Assembly: GCA_943789465.1 (NCBI GenBank)
Contig: CALSUF010000002.1
Coordinates: 186,001-250,000, forward strand
Direction: 5' to 3'
Length of the DNA: 64,000 bases
Origin: an uncultured Flavobacteriaceae bacterium
GTDB taxonomy: Bacteria > Bacteroidota > Bacteroidia > Flavobacteriales > Flavobacteriaceae
Of this stretch, positions 5,820 through 25,625 are shown piece after piece. The notes beneath the pieces are model-generated. The model saw nothing but the letters and a program-made list of their open reading frames with translations, did no database searches and had not been told where the DNA came from. Position 1 is the first letter of the stretch, and every line of letters begins with the position of its first letter. A program made the translations under genes and the position numbers.

Positions 5820-5976
5820 TGAACTAAAATAAGTAGGAAGCTGCTACAAAAGATAGAATTACCATAAATAATATCTAATTTTAACTATACACTTGTTATT
5901 TGCTTGCTACACAATGCTAAAAATAGCTATACATCACCCCTACATCATACGGTAATATAGTAGGTTTTAAACACCT

Positions 5977-9100: not shown

Positions 9101-9324
9101 ATTTATCGACTACCCTAGGAAAACCAGATTGGTTCATCCTTCCTAATACACAAGTTGGTGTACGTGGAACATGGCGTTCTATGAATGAAAATTCTCCTAG
9201 ATACTCCCCTAATTTTGTACCACCCAACACCTATCCAGCAATTCCACCCATCAGTTCTTTAGGATTTCCTAACGGAAGTGAATGGGAAATTAGAACATAT
9301 ATTCATATTAATATTGGAAAATAA
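6175..9324 (+). CDS. secreted clan GH-A glycosidase fused to an outer-membrane beta-barrel
   Basis: The protein has 1049 residues. Residues 1-23 form a Sec signal peptide ending in VFAQ. Residues ~30-420 form a TIM barrel of clan GH-A type (GH2/GH5/GH72-like): the acid/base Glu is probably E172 in LLGNENN and the nucleophile E277 in MLTEFGAD. From ~430 to the end the sequence is a long series of alternating amphipathic strands with aromatic girdles (for example GNWGVAAVYHED, RRVSLAFERQFG, FNLGFVYRHHP) and a final strand WEIRTYIHINIGK, which looks like a porin-type outer-membrane barrel. It is the first gene of the laminarin locus, 12 bp before a lipoprotein gene. A hydrolase or transglycosylase tied to a pore is my inference; no SusC/SusD is present nearby. 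The exact GH family is not settled. Confidence 0.8.
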   Translation: MKQIMKNTFLRLVLFLITTSVFAQADKVTVVNNEDGMKLVVNGEDFMINGMNWDYFPIGTNYSYSLWNQSDDVIKAALDAEMGLLKNMGVNVIRQYVGAQPKWIQYIYENYGIYTMLNHSFGRYGLTINNAWVPVTDYSDPDTQALLMSEVTELAETYKDTPGLLMFLLGNENNYGLFWAGAETEDFPDEEEKRDFIGEERGRPMYKLMNDASIKMKSIDASHPIAICNGDVLFIDIIAEECKDVDVFGTNMYRGPSFTDAFKIVKEKLDMPIMLTEFGADAFNALNNAEDQKMQAYYMVSNWKDIYENAAGLGKSENAIGGFTFQFSDGWWKFGQTKNLEVHDNNASWSNGGYQLDFAPGKNNMNEEWFGICAKGPTNSRGLYTLYPRASYYALKIAHQLNPYEDGVTPEFLTTHFDTIELMDAVLRARGDKAALGGSEKIKLSNMRAEFTTFNTGGSLITTPENADPNSNGYPNELGFDHMQSYFIGVEGNPTSNMRANVNFNILGNVAENPIDEIFYENTGRPIEVNTDDGNVTITDPNRVKIYNAEFDWNAKDFNLRGFYRTGHYHWAYEGDFFNLYREANYGPNLDLYNGEISGIEFDAKGTLNGLKAAFGPQLWWGANPAVLLKYGRNLGNWGVAAVYHEDIDDVGRAVTSIAIPLPKTRRVSLAFERQFGAFNFEIGGLWGGQPLNGRKFQIAEGTTDNYVIYTDEINNKDNWGAKAKLSYEKGPIKWYVQGASMGLVANGGSDQTQTFTGWKLKDTGSGNQNNFLSGFAYTFGDFQIAPNFLWQKPIVAAMPNDLNGGTGRLRNVQDDPFAVRANRETTAGELLFSYDPTPGTWMYEWDNDRAEDAKFAFNLGFVYRHHPTAQDAAVGFLANRTSFAFPNAAPAQDLWEAHSRIVSKLTPDLGFIANFYAGNAQANGSDERLIERFGGDVRLIYNKLKLTHTFKFNDWGPFDYHRDFNLTYPVQLMLDLSTTLGKPDWFILPNTQVGVRGTWRSMNENSPRYSPNFVPPNTYPAIPPISSLGFPNGSEWEIRTYIHINIGK

Positions 9325-9336
9325 AAAACTGTAAAA

Positions 9337-10788
9337 ATGAAAAATATAAAATTTATATATTCAAAAACGATGCTCCTCACGGGATTACTTTTTGTAATCA
9401 CCATGAGTTGTGAAAGAGAGATATCTGATCAATCAGAATTTGCAACCCTGTCAAAAACAGGAGAGATTTTCACAGACTCCCCAATTGGATTAGGGAGTGA
9501 TTTTTACTTCCCATATTCAGGTTCCAAAGCAAACGCTTGGTCAGTTGATGAAAGTGAAGGCTATGAAAGCTATGCTTCCATGCGATTTGATGTACCAAAT
9601 GCAAACGATCCTGAAGGAAGTTATGCAGGTGGTATATTGAGAGTTGATGGATCAGGGCGTGACCTTACAGAATTCGATGCACTTACCTTTTGGGCAAAAG
9701 CTTCACAGGGAGTAGTTATCGGAGAAATAGGTTTTGGGCAAGACTTTGGACTTAATAAATACCAGGTCAGTGAAATAAACATAAGCCTAGGTACTAACTG
9801 GCAAAAATACGTCATTCCAATCCCTGATCCGTCAAAACTATTTGATGAAAGAGGTATGTTTTGGTATTCGGCAGGAACTCAAAACACAGGGGGTAATGGC
9901 TACACTTTTTGGATTGATGAATTAAAATTTGAAAAGTTAGGAACTATTGGACAACCAAGACCCGCCATTGTCAATGGTGAAGATGTTGTTAAAAATGTCT
10001 TTGCGGGGATTGATTTAGAATTAACGGACCTTACACAAACATTCAATTTAGGTAATGGTCTAAACAAGACAGTTAGTATAGCACCAAGTTACTTTGATTT
10101 TTCATCTTCTGCTCCACATATAGCTTTTGTAAATGAATTTGGAGTAATTAATGTTAGTAATGGAACAGCAGTTATTACGGCGACTTTAGGCGGAGTAGAA
10201 GCCGAAGGATCTGTAACTGTAAATGCCGTTGGTGAGTTTGAACTGGCGCCAGCACCAACTAGAGACCCTAGTGATGTTATTTCTGTTTTTAGTGATACTT
10301 ACACAAATGTACCTGTAGACTTTTTTAATGGCTACTGGCAGCCTTATCAAACAACTCTTGGGGGTGAAATTATTATAAATGGACAAAATGTGCTTAAGTA
10401 TACGGACTTTAATTTTGTGGGTACTCAACTTTCAAACCCCATAGATATTTCGGAAATGACTCATTTTAGTGTTGATATATTAATGCCTGTAGTTTTGCCT
10501 ACTGATATTGACATGCTCATTGTTTTGAAGGCTGAGTCATCTTTACAACAACAGCGTATTGGTGGTCAAACTTATCAATGGTCTGATCAAACAGGAGATA
10601 TCAATGATACTGAAGCCAATGGAACTTTTGAAGAAGGTGGCGTATGGAAAACTTTTAAAATTCCTATTAGACCAACATCTGAAACTGGTTTGGATAAAAC
10701 AGCAGTCAATATCATTATCATTGAAAGGATAAAATCTTCTAACGTGACGGATTTACACGTCGATAATATGTATTTCTTCAAAGAATAA
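9337..10788 (+). CDS. surface carbohydrate-binding lipoprotein with Big_2-like domain
   Basis: A lipoprotein of 483 residues with lipobox FVITMSC (Cys at about residue 25) followed by ERE, an acidic pattern typical of surface-exported Bacteroidota lipoproteins. It has two jelly-roll, CBM-like modules: residues ~45-205, ending FWIDELKFEK, and residues ~305-483, ending LHVDNMYFFKE. Between them (residues ~205-295) is an Ig-like Big_2 segment with FGVINVSNGTAVITATLGG. No catalytic motif is visible. It lies between the glycosidase-barrel and the GH16 gene with short spacers, so it probably binds beta-glucan at the cell surface, taking the place of a SusE/F-type protein. The ligand is inferred from the neighbours. 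Confidence 0.78.
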   Translation: MKNIKFIYSKTMLLTGLLFVITMSCEREISDQSEFATLSKTGEIFTDSPIGLGSDFYFPYSGSKANAWSVDESEGYESYASMRFDVPNANDPEGSYAGGILRVDGSGRDLTEFDALTFWAKASQGVVIGEIGFGQDFGLNKYQVSEINISLGTNWQKYVIPIPDPSKLFDERGMFWYSAGTQNTGGNGYTFWIDELKFEKLGTIGQPRPAIVNGEDVVKNVFAGIDLELTDLTQTFNLGNGLNKTVSIAPSYFDFSSSAPHIAFVNEFGVINVSNGTAVITATLGGVEAEGSVTVNAVGEFELAPAPTRDPSDVISVFSDTYTNVPVDFFNGYWQPYQTTLGGEIIINGQNVLKYTDFNFVGTQLSNPIDISEMTHFSVDILMPVVLPTDIDMLIVLKAESSLQQQRIGGQTYQWSDQTGDINDTEANGTFEEGGVWKTFKIPIRPTSETGLDKTAVNIIIIERIKSSNVTDLHVDNMYFFKE

Positions 10789-10817
10789 TAATTAAGAAAC
10801 TATCAAAACAAGAAAAA

Positions 10818-11771
10818 ATGAATAAAAATAATAAAAAGACAATGCATAAAACAACAATGTTGTTTGCCACTTTTGCTTTTGTATCGATGATAAGCTTCAC
10901 TAGTTGTGACACGGATGAAACCCAAACGGTTGCCACCTTTACAAATCTAGTAATGGCAGATGAATTTGATGTAGAAGGAGCTCCTAATTCCGAATTTTGG
11001 AATTTAGATACAGGTACAGGCTTTGATGGATGGGGCAATAATGAATTGCAATATTATACAGACCGTCCCGAAAATGTAACTGTACAAAATGGACTGTTAG
11101 TAATATCTGCTTTAGAAGAAGATTATAACGGATCCTCTTTCACTTCAGCGAAATTAATTACAAAAGGAAAATTTTCACAAGCCTTTGGGCGCTTTGAAGC
11201 ACGTATCAAAGTACCAGGGGGATCAGGTCTTTGGCCAGCATTTTGGCTCTTAGGAGAAAACGATGATATAGACGGATGGCCTCAGTGTGGTGAAATTGAT
11301 ATTATGGAGTACCGCAGACAAGAACCTACAAAAGTAAGCGGTTCTATACACGGTCCTGGATACTCTGGTGAAACATCGCCACAAGGTCAAGTGACTAAAA
11401 GCTACGATTTAGGTAGTGCGCGTTACGACGACGATTTCCATGTTTTTGGAATCGAGTGGGGGTATCAATATATCAACTACTACATAGATGGTGTATTGTA
11501 CAATCAAATTACACCTGCTGATATTGCAGTCACACCAACCGATGCTGTTTACACATTAAATGATGGTGTGGAAGCTGTAGAAGCAACCGAAGATACTCCA
11601 GCTGTGGAAGCAGTTGAACCGACTGATGTCACTGGAGATTGGGTATTTAACAAACCATTCTATATCATCATCAACCTAGCAGTTGGTGGTAATTTTCCTG
11701 GAAATCCTGATATTGGAGAGACGTTTCCACAAAACATGCTAGTAGATTACGTAAGAGTATACAAACAATAG
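10818..11771 (+). CDS. GH16 endo-beta-1,3-glucanase (laminarinase), lipoprotein
   Basis: The protein has 317 residues with a lipobox ISFTSC (Cys ~30) followed by acidic residues (DTDET), suggesting surface anchoring. The GH16 fold is clear from VPGGSGLWPAFWLLG and the catalytic signature GEIDIME, with E159 as nucleophile, D161 and E164 as acid/base. The bulged EIDIME form is that of laminarinases. The last part, PFYIIINLAVGGNFPGNPD through DYVRVYKQ, is also canonical. An acidic, low-complexity insertion (VEAVEATEDTPAVEAVEPT, residues ~252-270) is unusual. It cuts beta-1,3-linked laminarin into oligosaccharides and sits between two binding lipoproteins in the same transcription unit. An in-frame ATG at 10842 is an alternative start. 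Confidence 0.95.
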   Translation: MNKNNKKTMHKTTMLFATFAFVSMISFTSCDTDETQTVATFTNLVMADEFDVEGAPNSEFWNLDTGTGFDGWGNNELQYYTDRPENVTVQNGLLVISALEEDYNGSSFTSAKLITKGKFSQAFGRFEARIKVPGGSGLWPAFWLLGENDDIDGWPQCGEIDIMEYRRQEPTKVSGSIHGPGYSGETSPQGQVTKSYDLGSARYDDDFHVFGIEWGYQYINYYIDGVLYNQITPADIAVTPTDAVYTLNDGVEAVEATEDTPAVEAVEPTDVTGDWVFNKPFYIIINLAVGGNFPGNPDIGETFPQNMLVDYVRVYKQ

Positions 11772-11792
11772 TAACAACTAATAAAAAAGACA

Positions 11793-14126
11793 ATGAAAAA
11801 TTTAATCAAAACAATTAAAAAAGTTTCACTACTCATTTTGGCAATCAGTTTTATCGGTTGTGATGATAATGATGGAGCAGTTCTACCACAACTTAAAGCT
11901 GGTTTCACGCATACAATTAATACTAACACAGGAACAGTAACTTTTATAAACACATCTACAAATGCTTCTATGTATGAGTGGAGTTTTGGAGATGAAAGTA
12001 CTTCTACGCTTATCAATCCAGTAAACGTATATGAAAACGGAACTTACTTGGTAGTTTTAAAAGCATCCAATGTAGCGGGAGATTTTGATATTTTTTCCGA
12101 TGAAATTACTATTTCAATCTCTGAAATTGCAGCTTTGCCAATGACGTTTGATATTGAAAATATTACCTATGAAGCAACTGTTTTTAATGGTACAAGCTTT
12201 GAAATTCTTGCAAATCCAGATCTTTCAGGCACAAATGCAGTAGAGTCTAACGTAGGAGCAATTACAAATAGCGGTGCTACGTACGAAGGTTTATTTTTTG
12301 AACTAGGGGCTCCTGTTGATTTAACGACTGAAAAGTCAATAAAGATGAATTTCTGGGCAAATGCTCCAATAGACGTTTTAATGAAACTGGAAGAAGGATC
12401 AGCAGCAGATACTGAAACAACTGCTAGTCACACAGGATCTGGATGGGAAGAAATTATTTTCACTTTTAATTCTGCTGCTAGCTATTCTAAACTTACTCTA
12501 TTTGTAGATGGCGCAGGGACATCCGATGGAACATTCTATTTTGACGATATTACTCAAGTAGCATCCCCTCTATCTCCTTGTGATGCTGAAACAGCAGAGT
12601 CACTTTCAGCTTCCGATTTGAATATAACTTTTATGTCAGATCCAACTGCGAGTATTACTTCAGATGGTGCAGGATTTAGTTGGATAGATAATCCAGATTC
12701 TGACAATACAGTAAACACCTCTTGTAAAGTTGGACAAATTGATAGAACTAGTGCTTCTCAGTACGCAAACAATCAAATAACCTTAGATGCGAAATTAGAT
12801 TTCAATTCAAATACAGGTTTTAAACTAAAAGTATGGTCACCAACAGCTGGTACAAATGTATTATTAAAATTAGAAGATCAGACTAATTCAGCGATATTTA
12901 AAGAAGTGTCAGCAATTACTTCAGCAGATAGTGCTGGAGCATGGGAAGAGCTCACATTTGATTTTGGAAGTGCAGATTCTAATAAGTTTGACAAAGTTGT
13001 ACTATTTTTTGAATTAAATTCTATGACTGAACAAACTTACTACATCGACGACCTAATGCTTTACGGCGAAGGTAATGGCGGCGGCGGCGGCGGCGACACA
13101 TGTGATTCTGAAACAACACAATCTGTTAGTGCTTCAAACTTTAATTTAACATTCCAAAATGATCCAACTGCAAGTATTACCTCAGATGGTGCAGGATTCG
13201 CTTGGATCAATAATCCAGATTTTGATAATGTAGTAAATACTTCATGTAAGGTTGGACAAATTGATAGAACAAGTTCTGCACAATATGCAAACAATCAAAT
13301 AGATTTAGATGCGAAATTAGATTTCAATTCAAACACAGGTTTCAAACTAAAAGTATGGTCACCAACAGCAAGCACAAATGTGTTATTAAAGTTAGAAGAT
13401 CAAACAAATGCAGGAACATTTAAAGAGATTTCGGCAACAACTTCAGCTACGAGTGCTAATGAATGGGAGGAGCTTACCTTTGAATTCCAAAGTACAGATT
13501 CTAATAAGTTCGATAAAATTGTAGTATTTTTTCAGCTAGGAACAACGATACAAGAAACCTATTATATAGATGACTTAAAATTATACGGAAACGGTGGAAA
13601 TGGCGGCGGCGGCGGTAATGGTGATTGCCCTGAGCCTCCAGCTGGAGAATTGTTGGCTAATGGAGATTTTGAAGCTGGAGATGTAGGTTGCTGGCAATTT
13701 TTCCCAGGCACAACTATTTCTACAACCATAAATAACGGAGGTAGTCAATCAGCAGAAATTCAAGGATCAACAGGAGTTGCTGTAGGTCTTAAGATGGAAC
13801 GTTTTGGAACAGGTTTAGTGACTCCAAATACATCTTACACAGTTTCTTTTGACATTATCGCTTCTGATGTATTGGGTGAAGGTGGACTTGTAAAAGCATT
13901 TGCATTCTCTGAAGGTGCTGATGGTGGAACTGTAGCGGCAACGCAACACGTTCTTACAGACAATACCACGTCTGTATCAACAACAGCTTGGGAAACTAAA
14001 ACATTCACGTTTACAACTCCTGGAAACGCAAATCAAGTTGAAGGAGGCTTATCCTTTTTAATTGAAATCGTTAATAGTGCAGCAAGATTGAATGTGGATA
14101 ACATATCCGTAAGAGTAACACCTTAA
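11793..14126 (+). CDS. multimodular beta-glucan-binding lipoprotein (PKD plus CBM-like modules)
   Basis: A 777-residue lipoprotein with lipobox ISFIGC (Cys 23) followed by DDND, a strong surface-export type signal. The modules in order are a PKD domain (~33-110, containing YEWSFGDEST), a jelly-roll module (~112-255), two near-duplicate jelly-roll modules (~263-427 and ~437-600, each ending in YYIDDL..LYG), glycine-rich linkers, and a C-terminal CBM4/9-like module (~610-777, starting GELLANGDFEAGD). No catalytic residues are recognisable. It closes the first half of the laminarin locus and probably acts as a surface glycan-binding protein. Binding of laminarin is inferred; the multiplicity of modules suggests avidity for a polymer. 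Confidence 0.85.
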   Translation: MKNLIKTIKKVSLLILAISFIGCDDNDGAVLPQLKAGFTHTINTNTGTVTFINTSTNASMYEWSFGDESTSTLINPVNVYENGTYLVVLKASNVAGDFDIFSDEITISISEIAALPMTFDIENITYEATVFNGTSFEILANPDLSGTNAVESNVGAITNSGATYEGLFFELGAPVDLTTEKSIKMNFWANAPIDVLMKLEEGSAADTETTASHTGSGWEEIIFTFNSAASYSKLTLFVDGAGTSDGTFYFDDITQVASPLSPCDAETAESLSASDLNITFMSDPTASITSDGAGFSWIDNPDSDNTVNTSCKVGQIDRTSASQYANNQITLDAKLDFNSNTGFKLKVWSPTAGTNVLLKLEDQTNSAIFKEVSAITSADSAGAWEELTFDFGSADSNKFDKVVLFFELNSMTEQTYYIDDLMLYGEGNGGGGGGDTCDSETTQSVSASNFNLTFQNDPTASITSDGAGFAWINNPDFDNVVNTSCKVGQIDRTSSAQYANNQIDLDAKLDFNSNTGFKLKVWSPTASTNVLLKLEDQTNAGTFKEISATTSATSANEWEELTFEFQSTDSNKFDKIVVFFQLGTTIQETYYIDDLKLYGNGGNGGGGGNGDCPEPPAGELLANGDFEAGDVGCWQFFPGTTISTTINNGGSQSAEIQGSTGVAVGLKMERFGTGLVTPNTSYTVSFDIIASDVLGEGGLVKAFAFSEGADGGTVAATQHVLTDNTTSVSTTAWETKTFTFTTPGNANQVEGGLSFLIEIVNSAARLNVDNISVRVTP
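12579..13071 (+). repeat. tandem CBM-like module, copy 1
   Basis: This ~490-bp segment of the binding lipoprotein is repeated at 13101-13590. Both begin with a CD(A/S)ET peptide, contain DPTASITSDGAGF and KLDFNSNTGFKLKVWSPTA, and end with YYIDDL. Several stretches are identical at the DNA level, so the duplication is recent. A (GGC)n glycine linker follows. Confidence 0.85.
13101..13590 (+). repeat. tandem CBM-like module, copy 2
   Basis: This is the second copy of the duplicated module of the binding lipoprotein. It is followed by another glycine-rich linker and the CBM4/9-like C-terminal module. Differences from copy 1 cluster near the end (GTFKEISATTSATSANEWEE against IFKEVSAITSADSAGAWEE). 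Confidence 0.85.
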
Positions 14127-14163
14127 TAATCATTTATCAATAAAAATGATCTAAAACGCTAAT

Positions 14164-14208
14164 AAAAGGTTAGAGTAAACTTTTTAAATACCTAACCTTT
14201 TCTATTTT
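14164..14208 (+). terminator. Rho-independent-like terminator splitting the laminarin locus
   Basis: AAAAGGTTAG (14164-14173) pairs with CTAACCTTTT (14192-14201), followed by a T-rich run. It lies 38 bases after the stop of the binding-lipoprotein gene and about 115 bases before the phosphorylase gene, so the outer-membrane half and the import/catabolic half are probably separate transcription units. Confidence 0.65.
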
Positions 14209-14322
14209 TGAAATCACAAATTAACTTTTAAAACACAACCAACTTTAAGTAGTTAAATAGATATTAAAAATTATAAAGCCTCACAAAATTATCAGGAAGA
14301 GGTTTATTGACAAAAAAATTAA

Positions 14323-17300
14323 ATGACAAAGAAAGCTATTTTTTTAGGAAAAAATAAAGACACAAATCAGGTTAAAGATATAGATGGAACTTTAGTTAAC
14401 ATTGATAACGAAGTCTATTATAAGATTTCTAACAGTGATAAAATGAGACCATTTTTCATGAGTATCGTTAGTGATTCCAATCACTGGATGTTTATTTCAA
14501 GTAATGGAAGTTTAACAGCTGGAAGAAAAAACTCTGAATTCGCGTTATTTCCATATTATACGGATGATAAAATTACGGAAGCTGCTGAAATTACAGGAAG
14601 TAAGTCTATTTTTCAAGTAGTCAAAAATGATGAAATTCATTTATGGGAACCTTTTTCAGATCGTTTTGCTGGAAAATATCAAACCACTCGAAATTTATAC
14701 AAAAATGAGTATGGTAATAAAGTGTTATTTGAAGAAATCAACCACGATTTAGAGCTTACTTTTCAATACCAGTGGAATTCAACAAATACGTTTGGATTTA
14801 TAAAAAAATCAAAGCTTATCAATAACTCAACTTCAAAAGTTGACATAAATGTATTGGATGGTATTCAAAACATTTTGCCTTATGGTGTAGGAAGTGATTT
14901 ACAAAATGCAAGTAGTAATCTTGTTGACGCTTACAAAAGAAGTGAGTTGGAGCAAATTTCTGGATTAGGAATCTATGCTTTAAGTGCCATCATTGTAGAT
15001 AAAGCGGAGCCTAGTGAAGCTTTAAAAGCAAATATTGTTTGGTCTTTAGGTTTAGACAATTCTAAACACCTACTATCTTCATTACAACTAGATAGTTTTA
15101 GAAAACAACAAGAACTCTCTCAAGAAACTGACGTTAAAGCTGAAAAAGGAGCTTATTTCATCAATTCTCAAATTGTATTGTCAGCACAAGAAGATAAAGA
15201 ATGGATGCTTGTTGCAGAAGTCAATAAAAACCACTCTGCGATTGCAAAACTGATCAATCAAATTAAAACAAACGATGGTTTATGGGAACTGATCAACCAA
15301 AAAATTGAAAAAGGAACATCACGTCTTATTGCTTTAAATGCAGCTTCAGATGGGCTACAACTTTCGGCTGACAAATTTAGAGATACTCGTCATTTTGCAA
15401 ACACCTTATTCAATATTATGAGAGGTGGTATTTTTGATGATAATTATCAAATTGAAAAGTGGGATTTTAAAAATTACCTTTCAAAAGCCAATAAAAAAGT
15501 ATCAAGAACAACAGAAGACAGTGTAGGTAAACTTCCTGAAATTTTCTCACTTTCGGTATTACAAGAATTAGCTCATGAAGTAGATGACACCAATTTTAGA
15601 CGTTTGTGTTTTGAGTATATGCCATTAAAATTTAGCCGTCGACATGGTGATCCTAGTCGTCCTTGGAATAAATTTTCAATCAACACCAAAAGTGAAATTG
15701 ATGGTTCAAAAATATTAGATTACGAAGGAAACTGGCGCGATATATTTCAAAACTGGGAAGCTTTAGCACATTCATATCCTGCGTTTATTGAGAGTATGAT
15801 TCATAAATTTTTAAATGCTACTACTTTTGATGGTTACAATCCTTACCGAGTAACCAAAGGCGGTTTTGATTGGGAAACCATTGAGCCAGACGATCCATGG
15901 TCGTATATTGGCTATTGGGGAGATCATCAAGTAATTTATTTACTTAAATTTTTAGAGTTTATAGAAAAACATCAACCCGAAAAATTAGCAACGCTTTTTG
16001 ATAAAGACTTGTTTGTATATGCAAATGTACCTTACAAAATTAAAAGTTATGAAGCCCTACTTGAAAACCCAAAAGATACTATCGAATTTGATGAAGCATT
16101 AGATCTCAAAATTAGAGAACAACGTGTAGAGCTTGGAGCTGATGGTGCTTTACTTCGAGATGAAAATCGATTTATTGTTAAAGTTAATTTCATCGAAAAA
16201 ATTCTTGCAACAACACTAGCAAAATTTTCAAATTTTATCCCTGAAGGAGGAATTTGGATGAATACACAACGTCCAGAATGGAACGATGCCAACAACGCCC
16301 TTGTAGGAAGTGGTGTTTCTATGGTAACCTTGTATTACCTGAGACGTTTTATGAAATTCTTTGATACAGTTATAGATCAATCTAATTTGGAAACTGTTGA
16401 GGTTTCTAAAGAACTAGTAACATTCTTCAATGCGATTTTATCAACTTTTAAGGATCATCAAAATTCACTTTCAGGACGCATCAATGACACAGAAAGAAAA
16501 CTAATTTTAGATGCTTTGGGAGCAGCAGGTAGCTCTTATAGGAATCAAGTTTACACACACGCATTCTCTGGAAGAAAAGAAACTATTTCTATTAGCGATT
16601 TAAAAGATTTTATTACAATTAGTCTTCAATACTTAGAACATTCAATCAGCGTCAACAAACGAGAAGATAATTTATACCACGCGTATAATTTAATGACAGT
16701 AAATGACGATAACAGTGTTTCAATTTCATATTTAGATGAAATGTTAGAAGGACAAGTTGCTGTGTTAAGTTCAAAATATTTATCGAGCGAAGAGTCATTA
16801 TCTGTGCTGAATGCAATGAAAAGTAGTAAACTTTTCCGTCCAGACCAATACAGTTATCTATTATATCCTTATAAAGAATTAAAAGGATTTATAGAACGAA
16901 ACACGATTTCAGCTGCCGCTATTTCAACATCAAAATTGTTACAACAATTAGTCGCCGATGAAAACTTACAAATTTTAGAGAAAGATGTCAACGGTGCCTA
17001 TCATTTCAATGGCAACTTTAAAAATGCAAATGATCTTAAAGCAGCCTTGGAAGAACTTTCCGAATCGTCTTATACAGAATTAATTAATCAGGATACTCAA
17101 AAAATTCTTCAGATTTTTGAAGATGTATTTAATCATAAATCTTTTACAGGACGTTCAGGTACATTTTATGGTTATGAAGGTTTAGGGTCTATTTATTGGC
17201 ATATGGTTTCTAAGCTACAATTGGCAGTTTTAGAAACTTGTACAGCAGCAATAGATTCAAATCAAAATGCAGTAATTGTTGGAAGTCTATTAGAACATTA

Positions 17301-17796
17301 TTACGAAATCAATGCAGGCATTGGAGTTCACAAGTCACCAAAATTATATGGAGCTTTCCCAACCGATCCTTATTCACATACACCAGCCGGAAAAGGCGCT
17401 CAGCAACCCGGAATGACTGGTCAGGTTAAAGAAGATGTTTTATCGCGTTTTGGAGAACTAGGTGTTACTATTTCTGACGGAAAATTAGGCTTTAATCCTT
17501 GTTTATTACGTAAAAATGAATTTTTACAAGAAAGTAAAATATTTCATTATATCGCTCTACCAAAAAAGCAAGATAGTATTTTGATTTCCAAAGATTCTTT
17601 ATGTTTTACCTACTGTCAAGTTCCTGTAATTTATACGATTGCAGAAGAAGATGGCTTAACAGTTAATTTGAATAACGGGAAAACAAAAACATTTGAATCA
17701 TTAAGCCTAGATACAGAAACAAGTGGACAAGTATTTAGCCGTAATGGAGAAATTATTCAAATAAATGTACACATTAAAAGTACTCGATTAAAATAA
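14323..17796 (+). CDS. GH149-like beta-1,3-glucan phosphorylase
   Basis: The protein has 1157 residues with no signal peptide, so it acts in the cytoplasm. Its length and layout (an N-terminal beta-sandwich ~1-300, a long (alpha/alpha)6 barrel, and a C-terminal beta domain) match the GH149 beta-1,3-oligoglucan phosphorylases. PEWNDANNALVG contains the probable catalytic Asp (D655), equivalent to the WND of GH94-type phosphorylases; YWGDHQVIYLLKFLE is another conserved block. The enzyme would convert laminari-oligosaccharides plus phosphate to alpha-glucose-1-phosphate. It heads the second transcription unit, followed closely by GH17, GH30 and transporter genes. GH94 or GH161 relatives are alternatives, but length and context favour GH149. 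Confidence 0.82.
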   Translation: MTKKAIFLGKNKDTNQVKDIDGTLVNIDNEVYYKISNSDKMRPFFMSIVSDSNHWMFISSNGSLTAGRKNSEFALFPYYTDDKITEAAEITGSKSIFQVVKNDEIHLWEPFSDRFAGKYQTTRNLYKNEYGNKVLFEEINHDLELTFQYQWNSTNTFGFIKKSKLINNSTSKVDINVLDGIQNILPYGVGSDLQNASSNLVDAYKRSELEQISGLGIYALSAIIVDKAEPSEALKANIVWSLGLDNSKHLLSSLQLDSFRKQQELSQETDVKAEKGAYFINSQIVLSAQEDKEWMLVAEVNKNHSAIAKLINQIKTNDGLWELINQKIEKGTSRLIALNAASDGLQLSADKFRDTRHFANTLFNIMRGGIFDDNYQIEKWDFKNYLSKANKKVSRTTEDSVGKLPEIFSLSVLQELAHEVDDTNFRRLCFEYMPLKFSRRHGDPSRPWNKFSINTKSEIDGSKILDYEGNWRDIFQNWEALAHSYPAFIESMIHKFLNATTFDGYNPYRVTKGGFDWETIEPDDPWSYIGYWGDHQVIYLLKFLEFIEKHQPEKLATLFDKDLFVYANVPYKIKSYEALLENPKDTIEFDEALDLKIREQRVELGADGALLRDENRFIVKVNFIEKILATTLAKFSNFIPEGGIWMNTQRPEWNDANNALVGSGVSMVTLYYLRRFMKFFDTVIDQSNLETVEVSKELVTFFNAILSTFKDHQNSLSGRINDTERKLILDALGAAGSSYRNQVYTHAFSGRKETISISDLKDFITISLQYLEHSISVNKREDNLYHAYNLMTVNDDNSVSISYLDEMLEGQVAVLSSKYLSSEESLSVLNAMKSSKLFRPDQYSYLLYPYKELKGFIERNTISAAAISTSKLLQQLVADENLQILEKDVNGAYHFNGNFKNANDLKAALEELSESSYTELINQDTQKILQIFEDVFNHKSFTGRSGTFYGYEGLGSIYWHMVSKLQLAVLETCTAAIDSNQNAVIVGSLLEHYYEINAGIGVHKSPKLYGAFPTDPYSHTPAGKGAQQPGMTGQVKEDVLSRFGELGVTISDGKLGFNPCLLRKNEFLQESKIFHYIALPKKQDSILISKDSLCFTYCQVPVIYTIAEEDGLTVNLNNGKTKTFESLSLDTETSGQVFSRNGEIIQINVHIKSTRLK

Positions 17797-17811
17797 TACT
17801 TATAAGACATT

Positions 17812-19092
17812 ATGAGAAAAATAACATCCATATTAAATTTAATACTGCTTGTTTTTCTTGTAATGTCCTGTAAAGAAAGTCAGCCAAAAAAAAATATACA
17901 AAACGATCAAATACATAAAGAAGTGACTGCTAAAGATATATTAGGAAATTCAAACTACTTAGCAATCTCATATGGTGGCTATCGAAAATCATCTAGAGAT
18001 TTTCAGCCCACTGTTGGAGAGCTAAAAGAAGATATGAAAATTCTTCACGCTATGAACATCCGAATATTACGTACGTATAACGTTCAATTAGCACATACTT
18101 CAAACATTTTGAAAGCTATACGCGAATTGAAAAATGAAGATCAATCTTTTGAAATGTATTTGATGCTAGGAGCTTGGATAGATTGTTTGAATGCTTGGAC
18201 TGATAGACCTGTAAACCATAATGTCGAAAGCGCGCAGAACTCGGAAGAAATTGACCGTGCAGTAGCCTTAGCAAATGAATATCCAGATATCGTAAAAGTT
18301 ATTGCGGTTGGAAACGAAGCCATGGTAAAATGGGCGACCTCTTATTTTGTGCAACCTAATATTATTTTAAAATGGGTTTCACATTTACAAGCGTTAAAAC
18401 AAACAGGAAAGTTATCTAAAGACATTTGGATTACGAGTTCCGATAATTTTGCATCATGGGGTGGAGGTGACCCTCAATATCATACAGAAGATCTTACAAA
18501 ATTAATAAAAGCTGTCGACTACTTATCTGTTCATACGTATCCAATGCACGATACACATTATAATCCTGTTTTTTGGGGTGTTTTTGGAGAAGAAACTCAA
18601 CTATCCAGTTTGAAACGAATTGATATTGCTATGAATCGTGCAAAAAATTATGCGATTTCTCAAACGGATAGTGTAGCCAAATACATCAAAAGTTTAGGCA
18701 TAAAAAAACCAATTCATATAGGAGAAACAGGTTGGGCGAGTGCTTCAAATGGTTTTTACGGCTCTAAAGGTTCAAAAGCTACTGATGAGTATAAGGAAGG
18801 CATTTTTTATGACAATATGCGCCAATGGACAGATCAAGATAATATGTCTTGTTTCTATTTTGAAGCTTTTGATGAACCTTGGAAAGATGCTCATAATAAA
18901 GGTGGATCTGAAAACTATTTTGGTTTATTCACAGTAGATGGTAAAGCTAAATATGTGCTCTGGGACTTAGTAGATCAAGGCGTTTTTGATGGGCTGACTC
19001 GGAACGGAAAACCAATCACGAAAACCTATAATGGTAACAAAGAAGCTTTATTGCTTGAAGTTGAATTACCACCAGTTAAAAATAAATTATAA
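17812..19092 (+). CDS. GH17 beta-1,3-glucanase lipoprotein
   Basis: The protein has 426 residues with lipobox LVMSC (Cys ~20) followed by KES, that is, without the acidic surface-export pattern, so a periplasm-facing lipoprotein is likely. The GH17 barrel spans about residues 50-400. The acid/base is E169 in AVGNEAM and the nucleophile E305 in IGETGWAS. The C-terminal FYFEAFDEPWK block is typical of bacterial GH17. It probably cuts beta-1,3-glucan oligosaccharides, and in relatives acts on laminarin after side-chain removal. It lies 15 bp after the phosphorylase gene and 24 bp before GH30. Confidence 0.93.
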   Translation: MRKITSILNLILLVFLVMSCKESQPKKNIQNDQIHKEVTAKDILGNSNYLAISYGGYRKSSRDFQPTVGELKEDMKILHAMNIRILRTYNVQLAHTSNILKAIRELKNEDQSFEMYLMLGAWIDCLNAWTDRPVNHNVESAQNSEEIDRAVALANEYPDIVKVIAVGNEAMVKWATSYFVQPNIILKWVSHLQALKQTGKLSKDIWITSSDNFASWGGGDPQYHTEDLTKLIKAVDYLSVHTYPMHDTHYNPVFWGVFGEETQLSSLKRIDIAMNRAKNYAISQTDSVAKYIKSLGIKKPIHIGETGWASASNGFYGSKGSKATDEYKEGIFYDNMRQWTDQDNMSCFYFEAFDEPWKDAHNKGGSENYFGLFTVDGKAKYVLWDLVDQGVFDGLTRNGKPITKTYNGNKEALLLEVELPPVKNKL

Positions 19093-19116
19093 TTAATCTC
19101 ATAAAATATAAATACT

Positions 19117-20595
19117 TTGAAAATTTATCATTTTTTAATTTTATCACTAATGCTCACAGGGTGTACCTCCAAACAATTATTAGAAGTTACAGTGTATGAA
19201 ACTTCTGCAAACGGAAACAAGTTAGCTGAAATTTCAGAATTTGAAACTTCTGAAAATCCCTCTAAAATTCAATTGAATCCTGAAGTAACATTCCAAACCA
19301 TCACAGGTTTTGGCGGATCATTTACAGAATCTTCTGCGTATTTACTAAATCGTTTAAGTAAAAAAAATAGAGACACTATATTAAACGCTTACTTTAGTGA
19401 AGATGGCGCCAACTATACGCTAACACGTACTCATATAAGTTCTTGTGATTTTTCATTAAATAATTATACTTATGCGCCAATCGCCGACGATATGGAGCTT
19501 AAACATTTTAGTATCGAAGAAGATAAAGATGATTTAATCCCCATGATAAAAGATGCAATGGCAATCTCAAAAGAGGGTTTTAATATCATTGCATCGCCTT
19601 GGACAGCCCCGCCATGGATGAAAGACAATAAAAACTATGTGGGTGGTAAATTATTACCAGAGTATTACAGTTCGTTTGCGTTATATTTTTCTAAATATTT
19701 AGAATCCTACAAAAACGAAGGGATTGATATTTGGGGACTAACTCCCGTAAATGAGCCTCACGGAAATGGTAACAATTGGGAGAGTATGCACTTTTCACCA
19801 GAAGAAGAAACAGACTTTGTTCAAAATCATTTAGGGCCAAAACTTGAAGAAGTAGGGAAAGCAGATATTAAAATCTTAGGCTATGACCAAAACAGAGATG
19901 GTTTAAAAGAGTGGGTAGATGTAATGTATAAAGATCAAGCGTCCTCTAAATACTATGCAGGAACTGCTATTCATTGGTATGAAAGCACCTATGATTTTTT
20001 CCCTAAAGCATTACAATATGCACATGACAAAGCACCAAACAAATATTTAATCGAAACTGAAGGGTGTGTCGATTCAGAAATACCAAAATGGCAAGATGAC
20101 AAATGGTATTGGTCTAAAGAAGCAACAGATTGGGGCTACGACTGGAGAGAACCAGCCAAAAAATATTTACACCCAAAATATGCGCCTGTTAACAGATACG
20201 CACGCGATATTATAGGCTGTCTAAATAATTGGGTAGATGGTTGGGTAGACTGGAACATGGTTTTAGACAGACAAGGGGGACCAAATTGGTTTAAAAACTG
20301 GTGTGTGGCTCCAATAATTGTCGACCCAGATAACGATCAAGTATACTTTACGCCACTCTACTACACGATGGCACATTTTAGTAAATACATCCGACCGGGT
20401 GCAAAAGTCATTGGTTTAGATAAATCGGATGCAGACTTACAAGTTACTGCGGCACAAAATCCAGATGGATCTATCGCAGTAGTCGTTTTTAACGAAGGAA
20501 AAGAACTAAAATCTTTTGAACTTTCTTTAGGAAAAACGTCAAAATTAATAACCATACAACCCCAAGCAATTCAAACTATAGTAGTACCAAAATAA
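19117..20595 (+). CDS. GH30 beta-1,6-glucosidase/glucanase lipoprotein
   Basis: The start is a TTG (19117) directly before the lysine of the signal peptide; the lipobox is LMLTGC (Cys 16). The 492-residue product has the GH30 hallmarks GFGGSFTESSAYLL (~66-79) and SSCDFSLNNYTY, the acid/base E213 in TPVNEPHG and the nucleophile E315 in ETEGC, and a C-terminal beta-sandwich. Related flavobacterial GH30 enzymes remove beta-1,6-linked glucose branches of laminarin, clearing the backbone for GH17. The residues after the lipid Cys are not acidic, so a periplasmic location is inferred. It sits between GH17 and the transporter fusion. Confidence 0.93.
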   Translation: MKIYHFLILSLMLTGCTSKQLLEVTVYETSANGNKLAEISEFETSENPSKIQLNPEVTFQTITGFGGSFTESSAYLLNRLSKKNRDTILNAYFSEDGANYTLTRTHISSCDFSLNNYTYAPIADDMELKHFSIEEDKDDLIPMIKDAMAISKEGFNIIASPWTAPPWMKDNKNYVGGKLLPEYYSSFALYFSKYLESYKNEGIDIWGLTPVNEPHGNGNNWESMHFSPEEETDFVQNHLGPKLEEVGKADIKILGYDQNRDGLKEWVDVMYKDQASSKYYAGTAIHWYESTYDFFPKALQYAHDKAPNKYLIETEGCVDSEIPKWQDDKWYWSKEATDWGYDWREPAKKYLHPKYAPVNRYARDIIGCLNNWVDGWVDWNMVLDRQGGPNWFKNWCVAPIIVDPDNDQVYFTPLYYTMAHFSKYIRPGAKVIGLDKSDADLQVTAAQNPDGSIAVVVFNEGKELKSFELSLGKTSKLITIQPQAIQTIVVPK

Positions 20596-20636
20596 CACAT
20601 ACACAAACTAACACACAAACTAAAAACTAATTCATT

Positions 20637-22985
20637 ATGTCTAACCAATCTAACCAAGTTCCGTTAGGGCAAAAAATAGCCTTCGGACTAGGAATGCTTG
20701 CCAATCAAATGTTTCCAGCAGCTCTGGGAATTTTTATGGTAGTACTCGTCCAAAATTTAGGATTCCCTGGGTGGATGTGGGGCATCATTTATTTTTTTCC
20801 ACGAATATTTGATTCTTTTACAGATCCTATCATGGGATTTATATCAGATAACACAAAATCAAGATGGGGGAGACGAAGACAATATGTGTTTATTGGCGCT
20901 ATAGTGATGGGAATATCTTTTGCCATTATGTGGCAATTATTTAAAGATAGCGGAGTTGATTATAACTTTGTGTATTTTATGTTTTGGTCTTTCGTCTTTT
21001 ATTTGGGACTTACTATTTTTAGTGTGCCTTATGTTGCGATGGGCTATGAGATGAGTGACGATTTTCACGAACGAACAAGTATCATGGCAGTTGCTCAATG
21101 GATAGGTCAGTGGGCATGGGTCATTGCTCCTTGGTTTTGGGTCATTATGTATATTAACGGAGATGATGGTTGGTTTGCAACTGCGGAAGAGGCAACACGA
21201 ACCTTAGCTATATGGGTTGGTATTATTTTGATGTTTGTTGCTATGGTTCCAGCGCTATTTATTAAGAGTAAATCGACTTTAGATGAAGATTATGCAGACT
21301 TATCACTTAAAAACATAAGAGGTAGTTTTAATGAAATTAAATTAGGTTTTAAAGAAGCCTTACAAATTAAGCCTTTCCGTAAATTGTGTATTTCAACATT
21401 TTTGATTTTTAATGCCTTTAATACCGTTGCTACATTTACTTTCTTCGTCATTGTATATCAATTGTTTAATGGAGATGCAGAAGCTGCAAATGCAGGGTAT
21501 TGGCCGTCATTATTTGGTTGTTTAGGAGCACTGTCAACAACATTTATTGTTATTCCTATTGTGACTTGGATGTCCCGGAAGTTAGGAAAGAAAAATGCAT
21601 TTTTATTATCTCAAGGGATTTCTATAATTGGATATATTCTATTATGGTTTTTATTGATCCCTGGTAAACCTTATATGTTCATTTTTGCACTTCCTTTCTT
21701 TTCTTTTGGAATTGGAAGTTTATTTACTCTGATGATGTCTATGACATCAGATGTAATTGATTTAGATGAGTTGAATACTGGAAAGCGTAGAGAAGGTATT
21801 TTTGGAGCAATCTACTGGTGGATGGTAAAATTTGGTTTTGCGATTGCTGGTGCTTTAAGTGGTATCATACTGTCTGTTATTGGTTTTCAAGAAGGAGTTG
21901 CTTCAACCGATCAAGAAGGAGCTATCATCGGTTTACGTGCATTCTTTTCTGGTTTTCCAATATTAGGAACTTTAATCGCAATGTGGATAATGCGTGATTA
22001 TGACCTAACAGAAGAAAAAGCAGTAGAAACTAGTGCTATATTGTCTAGACGAAAAGAGACCCCAACAACTTACTACCAAACCGATAAACTCGCGTCGTTG
22101 CTAAGCTCTGATTTAAAAATAGATAACTCTTCTGATACTGATTTTTCATCAAAAACAGATGCGGAAATTAAAGCCTTATTTTCCAAAACATTAAATAATG
22201 GTTTGCACGGCTTGTGTTTTAGTCCGTATTTAGAAGGACAAAACATTGGAGATCAATTATCTGAATCTCAAATTACTAAACGTATGGAAGTCATTGCTCC
22301 TTATACTCAATGGGTACGTTCATTTTCTTGTACTGATGGAAATGAGCTCATTCCAAAAGTGGCACAACAAAAAGAGCTTAAGACCATGGTTGGTGCTTGG
22401 ATTGGAGATGATAAAACTCAAAACGAAAAAGAGATCAAAGCACTCATAAAGCTTGGAGAATCTGAATTGATTGATATTGCAGTTGTAGGAAATGAAACTT
22501 TGATGCGTGGAGAGCTTAGCGAAGAAGAATTACTTGCTTACATTAACAGAGTAAAAAAAGCATTACCTAGTATTCCTGTTGGTTATGTTGATGCCTATTA
22601 TCAGTTTGAAAAAAGATCAAAACTTATAGATGCATGTGATGTTATTTTAGTAAATTGCTACCCGTTTTGGGAAGGCTGTAATATCGAGCAATCTTCTATC
22701 TATTTAAAGCAAATGTATGCTGTTACACAACAGTTTGCAAAAGGAAAACCAGTAATAATTACAGAGACAGGTTGGCCAAACAAAGGAGATAGTTTACAAT
22801 CAGCAAAACCAACAGAAAGTAATGCAATGAAGTATTTTATTGATTCGTCCAATTGGGCGAAAAAAAATGAAATACCATTATTCTATTTTTCATCATTTGA
22901 TGAGTCTTGGAAAGTACATCACGAAGGGGATGTAGGAGCTCGATGGGGAATTTGGGATAAAAATGAAAAATTAAAATTTAGCTAA
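20637..22985 (+). CDS. MFS/GPH sugar transporter fused to a cytoplasmic GH17 domain
   Basis: The protein has 782 residues. Residues ~1-460 form a 12-helix glycoside-pentoside-hexuronide cation symporter: FDSFTDPIMGFISDNTKSRWG and GRRRQYVFIGA form the conserved loop 2-3 region, and DVIDLDELNTGKRREG the loop 10-11 motif. After a linker of about 60 residues, residues ~520-780 are a full GH17 barrel with acid/base E620 (VVGNETL) and nucleophile E710 (TETGWP). The reading frame is continuous, so this is a true fusion as sequenced. Because such transporters have cytoplasmic termini, the GH17 domain should face the cytoplasm and could cut laminari-oligosaccharides as they enter. The GH17 part is a paralogue of the next gene. 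Confidence 0.9.
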   Translation: MSNQSNQVPLGQKIAFGLGMLANQMFPAALGIFMVVLVQNLGFPGWMWGIIYFFPRIFDSFTDPIMGFISDNTKSRWGRRRQYVFIGAIVMGISFAIMWQLFKDSGVDYNFVYFMFWSFVFYLGLTIFSVPYVAMGYEMSDDFHERTSIMAVAQWIGQWAWVIAPWFWVIMYINGDDGWFATAEEATRTLAIWVGIILMFVAMVPALFIKSKSTLDEDYADLSLKNIRGSFNEIKLGFKEALQIKPFRKLCISTFLIFNAFNTVATFTFFVIVYQLFNGDAEAANAGYWPSLFGCLGALSTTFIVIPIVTWMSRKLGKKNAFLLSQGISIIGYILLWFLLIPGKPYMFIFALPFFSFGIGSLFTLMMSMTSDVIDLDELNTGKRREGIFGAIYWWMVKFGFAIAGALSGIILSVIGFQEGVASTDQEGAIIGLRAFFSGFPILGTLIAMWIMRDYDLTEEKAVETSAILSRRKETPTTYYQTDKLASLLSSDLKIDNSSDTDFSSKTDAEIKALFSKTLNNGLHGLCFSPYLEGQNIGDQLSESQITKRMEVIAPYTQWVRSFSCTDGNELIPKVAQQKELKTMVGAWIGDDKTQNEKEIKALIKLGESELIDIAVVGNETLMRGELSEEELLAYINRVKKALPSIPVGYVDAYYQFEKRSKLIDACDVILVNCYPFWEGCNIEQSSIYLKQMYAVTQQFAKGKPVIITETGWPNKGDSLQSAKPTESNAMKYFIDSSNWAKKNEIPLFYFSSFDESWKVHHEGDVGARWGIWDKNEKLKFS

Positions 22986-23005
22986 CAGTAATTTACATAT
23001 TAGAA

Positions 23006-23923
23006 ATGTCGTACAGAGAAGAATCCTATTACAAGCCAAAAAACGATTACAGTCAAATTGCTACGAAAGGTATAGAAGCCTCTAAAGATTCGTTAGAAGA
23101 TTTAAAAAACCAATGGCGTAAAACCATCCAAGATGGTATGCATGGTATTTGCTTTAGTATGTATGAAGATGGCCAAAAACCAGGTGATGAAATTAGTATG
23201 GCTCAAGTAGAGCGCCGTGTTAAAATTTTAAAACCCTATGTAGGAGCTATCCGTTCATTCTCCTGTACAGAAGGAAATGAATTTGTTCCAGTTGCGGCCA
23301 AAAAGCATGGTTTAAGAACATTAGTTGGTGCGTGGCTTGGTGATGATAAAGAAGAAAATGAAAAAGAGATTGAAGGTCTAATTAAACTAGCAAAAGCAGG
23401 ACATGTAGATGTCGCTGCAGTTGGTAATGAGGTTTTATACCGTAACGACTTAACCCTAGAGGAATTAGTAGCTTATATGAAACGTGTAAAAGAAGCCTTA
23501 GCTGGATTAGACATCCCAATTGGTTATGTAGATGCATATTATGAGTTTTCTCGTCATCCAATTATTGTAGAGCACTCAGATGTTATTTTAGCAAACTTAT
23601 ACCCTTATTGGGAAGGTTGCCCGATAGATTATTCATTAGGACATATGCAAGCTATGTATGGTCAAGTTGTAGATGCAGCACAAGGCAAGCCAATTATTAT
23701 TACAGAAACAGGCTGGCCAAGTCAAGGAGGTGGTTTAAGAGGAGCTATTGCTAGCGAAAAAGCTGCAATGAAATATTATATTGACACCATGCGATGGACC
23801 AAAGAAAACGATATTCCTAATTTCTATTTCTCATCTTTTGACGAGTCATGGAAAGTAGGACCCGAAGGAAAAGTAGGTGCTTATTGGGGACTCTGGGATA
23901 AAAATGAGAAATTGAAGTTTTAA
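23006..23923 (+). CDS. cytoplasmic GH17 beta-1,3-glucanase
   Basis: The protein has 305 residues without a signal peptide or lipobox (starts MSYREESYYKPKNDYSQ). The GH17 domain shows acid/base E142 in AVGNEVL and nucleophile E234 in TETGWPSQ, and ends YWGLWDKNEKLKF. It aligns along its whole length with the C-terminal domain of the preceding transporter fusion, with well over half of the residues identical by eye, so one arose from the other by duplication. It ends the laminarin transcription unit and is followed by a strong terminator. Its likely substrates are imported beta-1,3-gluco-oligosaccharides; transglycosylation is an alternative. Confidence 0.92.
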   Translation: MSYREESYYKPKNDYSQIATKGIEASKDSLEDLKNQWRKTIQDGMHGICFSMYEDGQKPGDEISMAQVERRVKILKPYVGAIRSFSCTEGNEFVPVAAKKHGLRTLVGAWLGDDKEENEKEIEGLIKLAKAGHVDVAAVGNEVLYRNDLTLEELVAYMKRVKEALAGLDIPIGYVDAYYEFSRHPIIVEHSDVILANLYPYWEGCPIDYSLGHMQAMYGQVVDAAQGKPIIITETGWPSQGGGLRGAIASEKAAMKYYIDTMRWTKENDIPNFYFSSFDESWKVGPEGKVGAYWGLWDKNEKLKF

Positions 23924-23946
23924 CTTCAAACGTATTTTTCAAAATG

Positions 23947-24003
23947 AAAGGTTTTTTGTGCGCTAGAGCGATGATACTAGCGTTACTTAAAACCTTTTTT
24001 TTG
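23947..24003 (+). terminator. terminator of the laminarin locus
   Basis: AAAGGTTTT (23947-23955) pairs with AAAACCTTT (23989-23997), with an inner CGCTAG/CTAGCG dyad (23961-23966 and 23977-23982), followed by a run of T. It lies just after the last GH17 gene and ends the locus. Confidence 0.8.
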
Positions 24004-24086
24004 TAGTTACTACCAAAACAAATCCATTCTTATAGTAAGTAAACTCCGAAATATTTAGTAGATTTAAATTCTCAAATTTACTAAAA

Positions 24087-25625
24087 ATGCTTAAAAAAGT
24101 CTACGGAAGCGCCGTCTTTGGCGTAGAAGCGCATACCATTACAATCGAAGTAAATGTAGATAAGGGTATTGGATACCATCTGGTAGGATTACCTGATAAC
24201 GCCATTAAAGAAAGTAATTTCCGTATTGCGGCTGCACTTCAAAACAATGGGTACAAAATCCCTGGTAAAAAACTCATCATTAATATGTCGCCTGCCGACA
24301 TGCGTAAAGAAGGATCAGCCTATGACTTGCCTTTGGCTATGGGGATTTTAACTGCTTCTAATCAAATTAAAGAAGTCAACATTGATCGGTATGTTATTAT
24401 GGGAGAACTGTCTTTAGATGGAATGGTGCAGCCTATTAAGGGAGCGCTACCTATTGCTATTAAAGCTTTAGAAGAAGGTTTTGATGGTTTTATTCTCCCT
24501 AAAGAAAACGCCAAAGAAGCTGCTATCGTAAATGGTCTGAAAGTGTATGGCGTCGAACACATCTCTGAAGTGATAGATTACTTTCATAAAAATAAAGAAC
24601 TAGAACAAACTATTGTAGATACCCGTGCCGAGTTTCAAAAAAACTTAGAGCATCCCGAATTTGATTTTTCAGATGTGAAAGGGCAGGAGAGTATCAAACG
24701 TTGTATGGAAATAGCAGCAGCAGGAGGGCATAATATCATATTGATTGGACCACCAGGAGCAGGAAAAACCATGCTCGCCAAGCGCTTACCATCCATATTA
24801 CCACCGATGACTTTGCATGAAGCCTTAGAAACTACCAAAATACACTCTGTTGTGGGGCGTATTGGTGCTCAAAAGGGATTGATTGCTCAACGTCCGTTTC
24901 GATCGCCTCATCATACCATTTCAAATGTTGCTCTTGTTGGCGGTGGGAGTTATCCACAACCGGGAGAAATTTCACTATCTCATAATGGTGTATTATTTTT
25001 AGATGAGCTTCCTGAATTCAAGAGGGAGGTTCTAGAAGTGATGCGACAGCCTTTAGAGGACCGAGAAGTGACCATTTCACGTGCCAAGTTTACAGTGACC
25101 TATCCCTGTAGTTTTATGTTGGTTGCCAGTATGAATCCTAGTCCAAGTGGCTATTTCAATGACCCAAGTGCACCATTGATGTCTTCAGCATCCGAGATGC
25201 AGCGCTATTTAGGTAAAATCTCAGGACCTTTATTAGATCGTATAGATATCCACATTGAAGTGACCCCAGTACCATTTGAAAAACTGTCAGACGATCGCAA
25301 AGGCGAATCATCTGTCAATATTAGAAAACGAGTTACCAAAGCCCGTGAGCTGCAAACCAAACGCTTTTTAGATTCTGAGGTAGTACATTACAACGCACAA
25401 ATGAACACCAAACAAATTCGTAAATACTGCAAGTTAGATCCTGCGTCGATGCAGCTTTTAAAAACCGCTATGGAGCGTTTAAATCTATCAGCACGAGCCT
25501 ATGACCGCATCCTAAAAGTGTCCAGAACTATTGCTGATTTAGAAGGTGTATTGTCCATAGAAAGTTCCCATATTAGCGAAGCTATTCAATACCGAAGCTT
25601 AGATCGAGAAGGTTGGCTAGGGTAA
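24087..25625 (+). CDS. comM: YifB/ComM family Mg-chelatase-like AAA+ ATPase
   Basis: The protein has 512 residues, the usual family length. The N-terminal ChlI-type domain (~residues 15-140) is followed by an AAA+ core with Walker A GPPGAGKT near residue 222 and the Walker B LFLDELPEF near residue 308, plus the C-terminal Mg-chelatase domain. ComM is a hexameric helicase that promotes branch migration during integration of transformed DNA in naturally competent bacteria; YifB homologues are widespread. It stands alone on the plus strand between the laminarin locus and convergent minus-strand genes. Confidence 0.95.
   Translation: MLKKVYGSAVFGVEAHTITIEVNVDKGIGYHLVGLPDNAIKESNFRIAAALQNNGYKIPGKKLIINMSPADMRKEGSAYDLPLAMGILTASNQIKEVNIDRYVIMGELSLDGMVQPIKGALPIAIKALEEGFDGFILPKENAKEAAIVNGLKVYGVEHISEVIDYFHKNKELEQTIVDTRAEFQKNLEHPEFDFSDVKGQESIKRCMEIAAAGGHNIILIGPPGAGKTMLAKRLPSILPPMTLHEALETTKIHSVVGRIGAQKGLIAQRPFRSPHHTISNVALVGGGSYPQPGEISLSHNGVLFLDELPEFKREVLEVMRQPLEDREVTISRAKFTVTYPCSFMLVASMNPSPSGYFNDPSAPLMSSASEMQRYLGKISGPLLDRIDIHIEVTPVPFEKLSDDRKGESSVNIRKRVTKARELQTKRFLDSEVVHYNAQMNTKQIRKYCKLDPASMQLLKTAMERLNLSARAYDRILKVSRTIADLEGVLSIESSHISEAIQYRSLDREGWLG

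Follow-up and report, generated by a model that had tools for sequence, protein, structure and literature searches.

A MelB-like symporter fused to a probably cytoplasmic GH17 domain in a Formosa-type laminarin locus of an uncultured Flavobacteriaceae bacterium

Described MFS-GH17 proteins and the laminarin locus

Laminarin is a major carbon currency of the sea, and blooms show strong expression of loci of the kind considered here (PMC10108472, PMC6246565). Unfried et al. (2018; PMC6246565) described a fusion of an MFS transporter to a GH17 domain, FORMB_24740 or FbGH17B, from Formosa Hel1_33_131, and called the MFS-GH17 fusion common in marine Flavobacteriia. FbGH17B was assayed in that work. 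Its activity is that of an exo-beta-1,3-glucosidase that releases glucose from debranched laminarin and its oligosaccharides and hydrolyses the products of GH17A to glucose; the rate constants are those on debranched laminarin, not on the transported oligosaccharides. Coupled transport and hydrolysis were proposed, and the cited portion of the paper speaks of two enzymes as 'likely residents of the periplasm' without giving a side for FbGH17B. In 2023 MFS-GH17 fusions were reported again, in variant 1 laminarin PULs of Bacteroidetes and of SAR92, Luminiphilus and SAR86 (PMC10108472). These loci, compared by description, share with the present one a GH17 fused to an MFS transporter. Among active MAGs, 11 of 15 bacteroidetal and 7 of 18 gammaproteobacterial ones expressed such loci, most of which had at least one MFS-GH17 fusion (PMC10108472). 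The initial annotation of the DNA studied here held that no well-described fusion of this kind existed, a claim that these two papers contradict. Its term 'glucanase' also calls for amendment: the published activity of the ortholog is that of an exo-beta-1,3-glucosidase (PMC6246565).

Other arrangements are also on record. Muricauda has GH17, GH30 and MFS as separate genes (PMC13188888), and a cytoplasmic GH17 adjoins MFS and GH149 in another described case (PMC5827456). GH17 is absent from five Maribacter in the account cited from PMC11345257, and GH17 loci are presented in PMC6298971, the cited parts of which mention neither MFS nor fusion. MlGH17B of Muricauda lutaonensis (PMC11005184, PMC13188888) belongs to the same GH17 subgroup, is 53% identical to FbGH17B, and, as in the present setting, has GH17A, GH30 and MFS genes in its locus. 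Unlike the fusion, MlGH17B is the product of a separate gene and possesses Tyr136; it cleaves two residues from the reducing end and has transglycosylase activity. In its separateness, its Tyr and its activity it is nearer to the free GH17 encoded beside the fusion (23006-23923).

The window, a stretch of 64,000 nucleotides from an uncultured Flavobacteriaceae bacterium (contig CALSUF010000002.1), contains the following features.

10818-11771 (+), GH16 lipoprotein (Pfam; lipobox).
11793-14126 (+), PKD/CBM4_9 lipoprotein, probably a surface glycan-binding protein (family match; hydrophobic N-terminus).
14323-17796 (+), GH149 beta-1,3-glucan phosphorylase (NCBIfam GH149 above cut-off; no signal sequence).
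17812-19092 (+), GH17A-type endo-laminarinase (hydrophobic N-terminus; Pfam below cut-off; 82% identity to a congener protein identical to 6FCG).
19117-20595 (+), GH30 lipoprotein, FbGH30-like beta-1,6-glucosidase (Pfam GH30; lipobox).
20637-22985 (+), MFS-GH17 fusion gene, ortholog of FORMB_24740 (FbGH17B) (open frame; Pfam MFS_2 and Glyco_hydro_17; 88% identity to the Hel1_33_131 fusion).
20637-21992 (+), within the fusion, MFS symporter part (aa 1-452; 12 helices; cation-site Asp59/Asp63).
21993-22157 (+), within the fusion, linker (aa 453-507; helix 459-474, hinge 475-477; low conservation, near-constant length).
22158-22982 (+), within the fusion, GH17 barrel (aa 508-782; acid/base E620, nucleophile E710, and M623 where transglycosylases have Tyr).
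23006-23923 (+), separate GH17, 305 aa (no signal sequence; Tyr at the aglycone position; 54% identity to the fused GH17).

One congener genome (G006, locus L061) connects this locus to the published one. Its GH17A is identical to PDB entry 6FCG over 430 of 430 residues, and 6FCG is FbGH17A of Formosa sp. (PMC11005184); the genome is therefore identified as Hel1_33_131. The fusion that adjoins this GH17A is 88% identical to the window's fusion, which on this comparison is an ortholog of FORMB_24740/FbGH17B. The two differ at 12% of the sequence, with no architectural difference seen. Their neighbors also agree, with GH149, GH17A and GH30 before the fusion and a free GH17 after it. Release of glucose from debranched laminarin is published for the 88% identical ortholog only and would apply to the window's protein by analogy.

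The fusion is co-located with GH17A, GH30 and GH149 genes. Among 93 fused stretches (one genome counted twice), at least 82 have a separate GH17 and at least 59 a piece of GH149, both counts being lower bounds since many stretches are short. The GH16, PKD, GH17A and GH30 proteins have hydrophobic N-termini, three of the four with a lipobox pattern; the GH149 and the free GH17 have no hydrophobic N-terminus. Nine ORFs at positions 5680-24087 of the window were searched against families, and no susC/susD-like pair was seen by eye among the ORFs of that interval. Promoter and terminator scans were no richer than shuffled sequence (65 against 66.9 and 7 against 9.8, respectively).

The first gene of the locus (6175-9324, +) encodes 1049 aa with a GH2-type TIM stretch at aa 74-290 and about 600 further residues that have no family match and, by eye, resemble an outer-membrane barrel. 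Of the 60 genomes examined, 14 in addition to the window's own have a full-length relative (one of them in two pieces); five others match roughly its first third alone, with frames of 338-362 aa. This gene is possibly a second enzyme-transporter fusion of the laminarin locus. Elsewhere in the window, a photolyase/cryptochrome-like protein (by eye) at 576-2109 (-) lies in two overlapping frames, 576-1826 and 1738-2109; the split is a frameshift or a sequencing error.

The fused frame and its occurrence

The fusion ORF runs on the forward strand from an ATG at 20637 to a stop at 22983-22985 and encodes 782 residues with no internal stop. Pfam assigns MFS_2 to aa 16-459 (E 5e-66; 223.4 bits against a cut-off of 27) and Glyco_hydro_17 to the C-terminal part, the top stretch being aa 705-781 (E 1.4e-10; 41.8 bits against a curated cut-off of 28.2). 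With phmmer, aa 10-494 match MelB 4M64 (E 4e-15) and aa 549-773 match the GH17 beta-1,3-glucanosyltransferase 4WTP (E 3e-30). An AlphaFold2 model, calculated from an alignment of 63 fused proteins with the window's protein among them, has a mean pLDDT of 85.9, 12 long helices read as membrane helices, and a GH17 barrel at aa 508-782 with eight strands between 523 and 751. Foldseek matches the N-terminal part to MFSD2A and MelB and the C-terminal part to the GH17 transferase 4WTR (TM 0.87 by target). A plain hydropathy scan is less clear and returns 12 segments. Eleven of them lie in the MFS part, where helix II is missed; the twelfth (aa 600-618) is weak and lies inside the GH17 barrel. E620 and E710 are invariant in 9 of 9 fused proteins and, in a larger set that includes the window's protein, in 63 of 63. 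E710 aligns with the Glu that is replaced by Ala in 4WTR, a record titled as an active-site mutant. The C-terminal domain thus has the profile, the barrel and the two catalytic Glu residues of a GH17 enzyme.

Between the two domains the model places a helix (459-474) followed by a weak hinge (475-477), which together with a pTM of 0.62 gives no fixed or reliable domain docking. The linker is poorly conserved (mean top-residue frequency 0.49, against 0.79 and 0.69), yet its length from M452 to G525 is kept within 71-82 residues across the 63 fused proteins.

An assembly artefact might have joined two genes here, and MFS and GH17 genes often adjoin one another in relatives. The distribution of the fused frame speaks against this. 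A search of 148 genomes gave 65 with any match. The frame is fused, with the same open junction, in 8 of the genus's 11 other genomes; among these 8, G006 is a single contig of 2.7 Mb. The remaining congeners comprise one without a match (G003), one with two separate genes (G010) and one with the transporter and no GH17 in the stretch read (G011). Altogether 41 stretches were read (40 and the window), and 13 are fused, three of these repeating contigs of named loci. Among the best 80 of 548 confirmed relatives, 68 loci are fused, some with the frame ended by the contig, and 12 are unfused; this ratio is not a frequency, as taking the best 80 of 548 favors fusions. In a phylum sample of 392 genomes, 43 have a GH17 match at E 1e-20 or better, and in 16 of the 43 (the window's own genome counted) the GH17 lies in a frame of at least 780 aa. 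From this sample 37 stretches were taken, covering 36 of the 42 genomes besides the window's own; the six omitted gave distant matches (34% identity or less). The fused GH17 is also phylogenetically distinct from the free GH17 that adjoins transporters.

With this junction likewise open in 8 of the 11 congeners, a single-contig genome included, an assembly error at the MFS-GH17 boundary is very unlikely, and we give it next to no weight. The initial annotation had read one unbroken 782-codon frame joining a transporter to a GH17 barrel with both catalytic Glu, and these points are all borne out, as is the true fusion at the domain junction. The fusion is not essential, since in 12 of the best 80 of 548 loci no GH17 is fused to the transporter.

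The transporter part and the side of the membrane

MelB, the melibiose symporter (4M64, 7L16), has the fold and an aligned cation-site Asp pair in common with the fusion at about 20% identity; it is without an enzyme domain, and a different sugar is expected for the fusion. D59 and D63 of the fusion align with the helix II pair D55/D59 of MelB and are invariant in all 63 fused proteins. The score against TIGR00792 (GPH symporters) is 178.8 bits, under the NCBIfam cut-off of 231.35. Judged by homology, the MFS part is MelB-like and belongs, as a remote member, to the wider group; it is not filed as TIGR00792. The earlier label of a GPH-type symporter holds for the MelB likeness, the 12 helices and the Asp pair, but not for the subfamily profile.

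Several features bear on the location of the GH17 domain. Lys and Arg number on average 30.3 in the 177 residues assigned to the cytoplasmic side and 3.4 in the 66 assigned to the periplasmic side, a count over 63 fused proteins that was not blind to topology, the helix limits being those of the hydropathy scan with helix II and the end of helix XII placed by hand. The excess is on the assigned cytoplasmic side in 63 of 63 proteins and reversed in none. The termini of MelB are cytoplasmic. Among separate GH17 relatives whose N-termini are complete, none of 137 has a hydrophobic N-terminal stretch; such a stretch is present in 75 of 82 GH17A and 79 of 93 GH30 proteins; GH149 is without one in the window and in all eight complete examples.

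GH17 enzymes are often secreted, and a periplasmic GH17 domain would cut oligosaccharides before glucose or short products are taken up. The description by Unfried et al. (PMC6246565) of hydrolysis to glucose, 'product uptake' and periplasmic enzymes also points that way. We regard this placement as improbable in view of the charge distribution, the even number of helices, the homology to MelB and the signal-free GH17 relatives. These same features make a cytoplasmic location well supported, and the GH17 domain probably faces the cytoplasm. The cytoplasmic C-terminus of the initial annotation is upheld to that extent. Its further idea, an enzyme at the inner mouth of the channel that could pull import, is conjectural, the model with its pTM of 0.62 and weak hinge offering no fixed docking.

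Descent of the tethered GH17 and its proposed role

The fused GH17 domains are nearly all of one lineage. A FastTree phylogeny was calculated from 230 GH17 rows, 90 fused and 140 separate, of which 228 are distinct (89 fused and 139 separate; L120 and L177 are the same genome). Fused stretches repeating contigs of named loci (L065, L067, L068) and a long GH17 row (L134_5953) were left out, as were, of the 68 named fused loci, those with the GH17 ended by the contig (L149, L150, L152). In this tree 89 of the 90 fused rows form one clade (support 97) with no separate member, so that two changes of state are needed. IQ-TREE, applied to 63 rows hand-picked from the 230, also gives two changes, both forced by well-supported branches. 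The loci were found by similarity to the window's fusion, and free members distant from transporters could be missed; the searches of the 148 and the 392 genomes spanned whole genomes.

The exception is L186 (genome G188; 1881-4343, -), where a GH17 of the free, Tyr-type lineage is fused to an MFS transporter. It is the sole GH17 match of its genome at E 1e-20 or better and is probably a second, independent fusion event. Within the fused clade, 13 Burkholderiales-type loci are embedded among Bacteroidota sequences, and a further locus is from Balneolota; this suggests horizontal transfer of the fusion. The Burkholderiales-type loci (L108, L110-L113, L117, L121, L122, L126, L130, L134, L138 and L151) include Rubrivivax, Hydrogenophaga, Rhodoferax and Leptothrix. 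An incomplete fused frame, outside the tree, is found on a contig labelled Thermoanaerobaculia (L149). In three loci (L039, L163, L165) the fused GH17 lineage sits on another subtype of transporter, which shares 41-42% identity with the MFS part of the window's fusion. A transporter tree of 122 rows has fused and unfused members intermixed, with 8 changes, and this mixing suggests that the fused domain was lost repeatedly or that transporters were exchanged. Adjoining MFS and GH17 genes were considered as fission products of the fusion; this was rejected, since those separate GH17s belong to the free lineage.

The tethered and free enzymes mostly differ at the aglycone site. Tyr136 of the transglycosylase MlGH17B is tied to transfer activity, and FbGH17B has Met at that position (PMC11005184). 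The window's fusion likewise has Met (M623, three residues after the acid/base E620) and so lacks the Tyr of the transglycosylases MlGH17B and RmBgt17A; the window's free GH17 (23006-23923) has it. Across the alignment this column reads L 55, M 18, H 7, Y 5, F 3 and Q 2 in the 90 fused rows, and Y 123 and L 17 in the 140 separate rows. Among distinct rows Tyr is absent in 84 of 89 fused and present in 122 of 139 separate ones. The exceptions are the five fused rows that keep Tyr and 17 separate rows that lack it, 11 of them from Burkholderiales-type loci. The state follows ancestry, with 5 changes on the 230-row tree; because of this strong tie the pattern represents few events, not 230. It suggests that the tethered enzyme is a hydrolase, accompanied by a GH149 phosphorylase and a free transglycosylase.

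The reading that we consider likely is that of a Formosa-type laminarin-locus fusion in which a cation-coupled, MelB-like inner-membrane symporter and a cytoplasmic GH17 hydrolase import and cut beta-1,3-oligosaccharides. The GH16, GH17A and GH30 lipoproteins would debranch and shorten laminarin outside the cell and in the periplasm. The symporter would import linear, debranched beta-1,3-oligosaccharides by cation symport, and the tethered GH17 would cut them on the cytoplasmic side. The free GH17, of the transglycosylase type, and the GH149 phosphorylase may then finish the breakdown in the cytoplasm under such a division of labor. Kinetic coupling of import and hydrolysis, the hypothesis of 2018 (PMC6246565), may operate in this protein.

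The fusion might instead fix only the ratio, expression and membrane location of the two activities, with transport unaffected by hydrolysis. The many relatives with MFS and a separate GH17 as adjoining genes agree with a tether of this kind, as do the poorly conserved linker, its weak hinge and the lack of predicted docking. It is harder to reconcile with the near-constant linker length and with a fused GH17 lineage that was not found free (0 free against 89 fused rows), and we hold a tether without coupling to be rather unlikely. The single clade without separate members argues for selection for the tether.

A more tentative proposal, which we hold to be less likely than not, concerns the lineage itself. 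The fused GH17 would exist only tethered, as a reducing-end hydrolase that has abandoned transglycosylation and so traps each laminari-oligosaccharide on import, and the free GH17 would re-lengthen short products for GH149. The maltodextrin trio MalZ, MalQ and MalP provides an analogy.

The single-lineage pattern of the fused GH17 and its loss of the aglycone-site Tyr in most members are new here, and they give concrete ground for comparing the tethered GH17 with its free counterpart in a single locus. If the tentative proposal is true, the system would be a beta-1,3 counterpart of MalZ/MalQ/MalP in which the MalZ-like enzyme is joined to the transporter.
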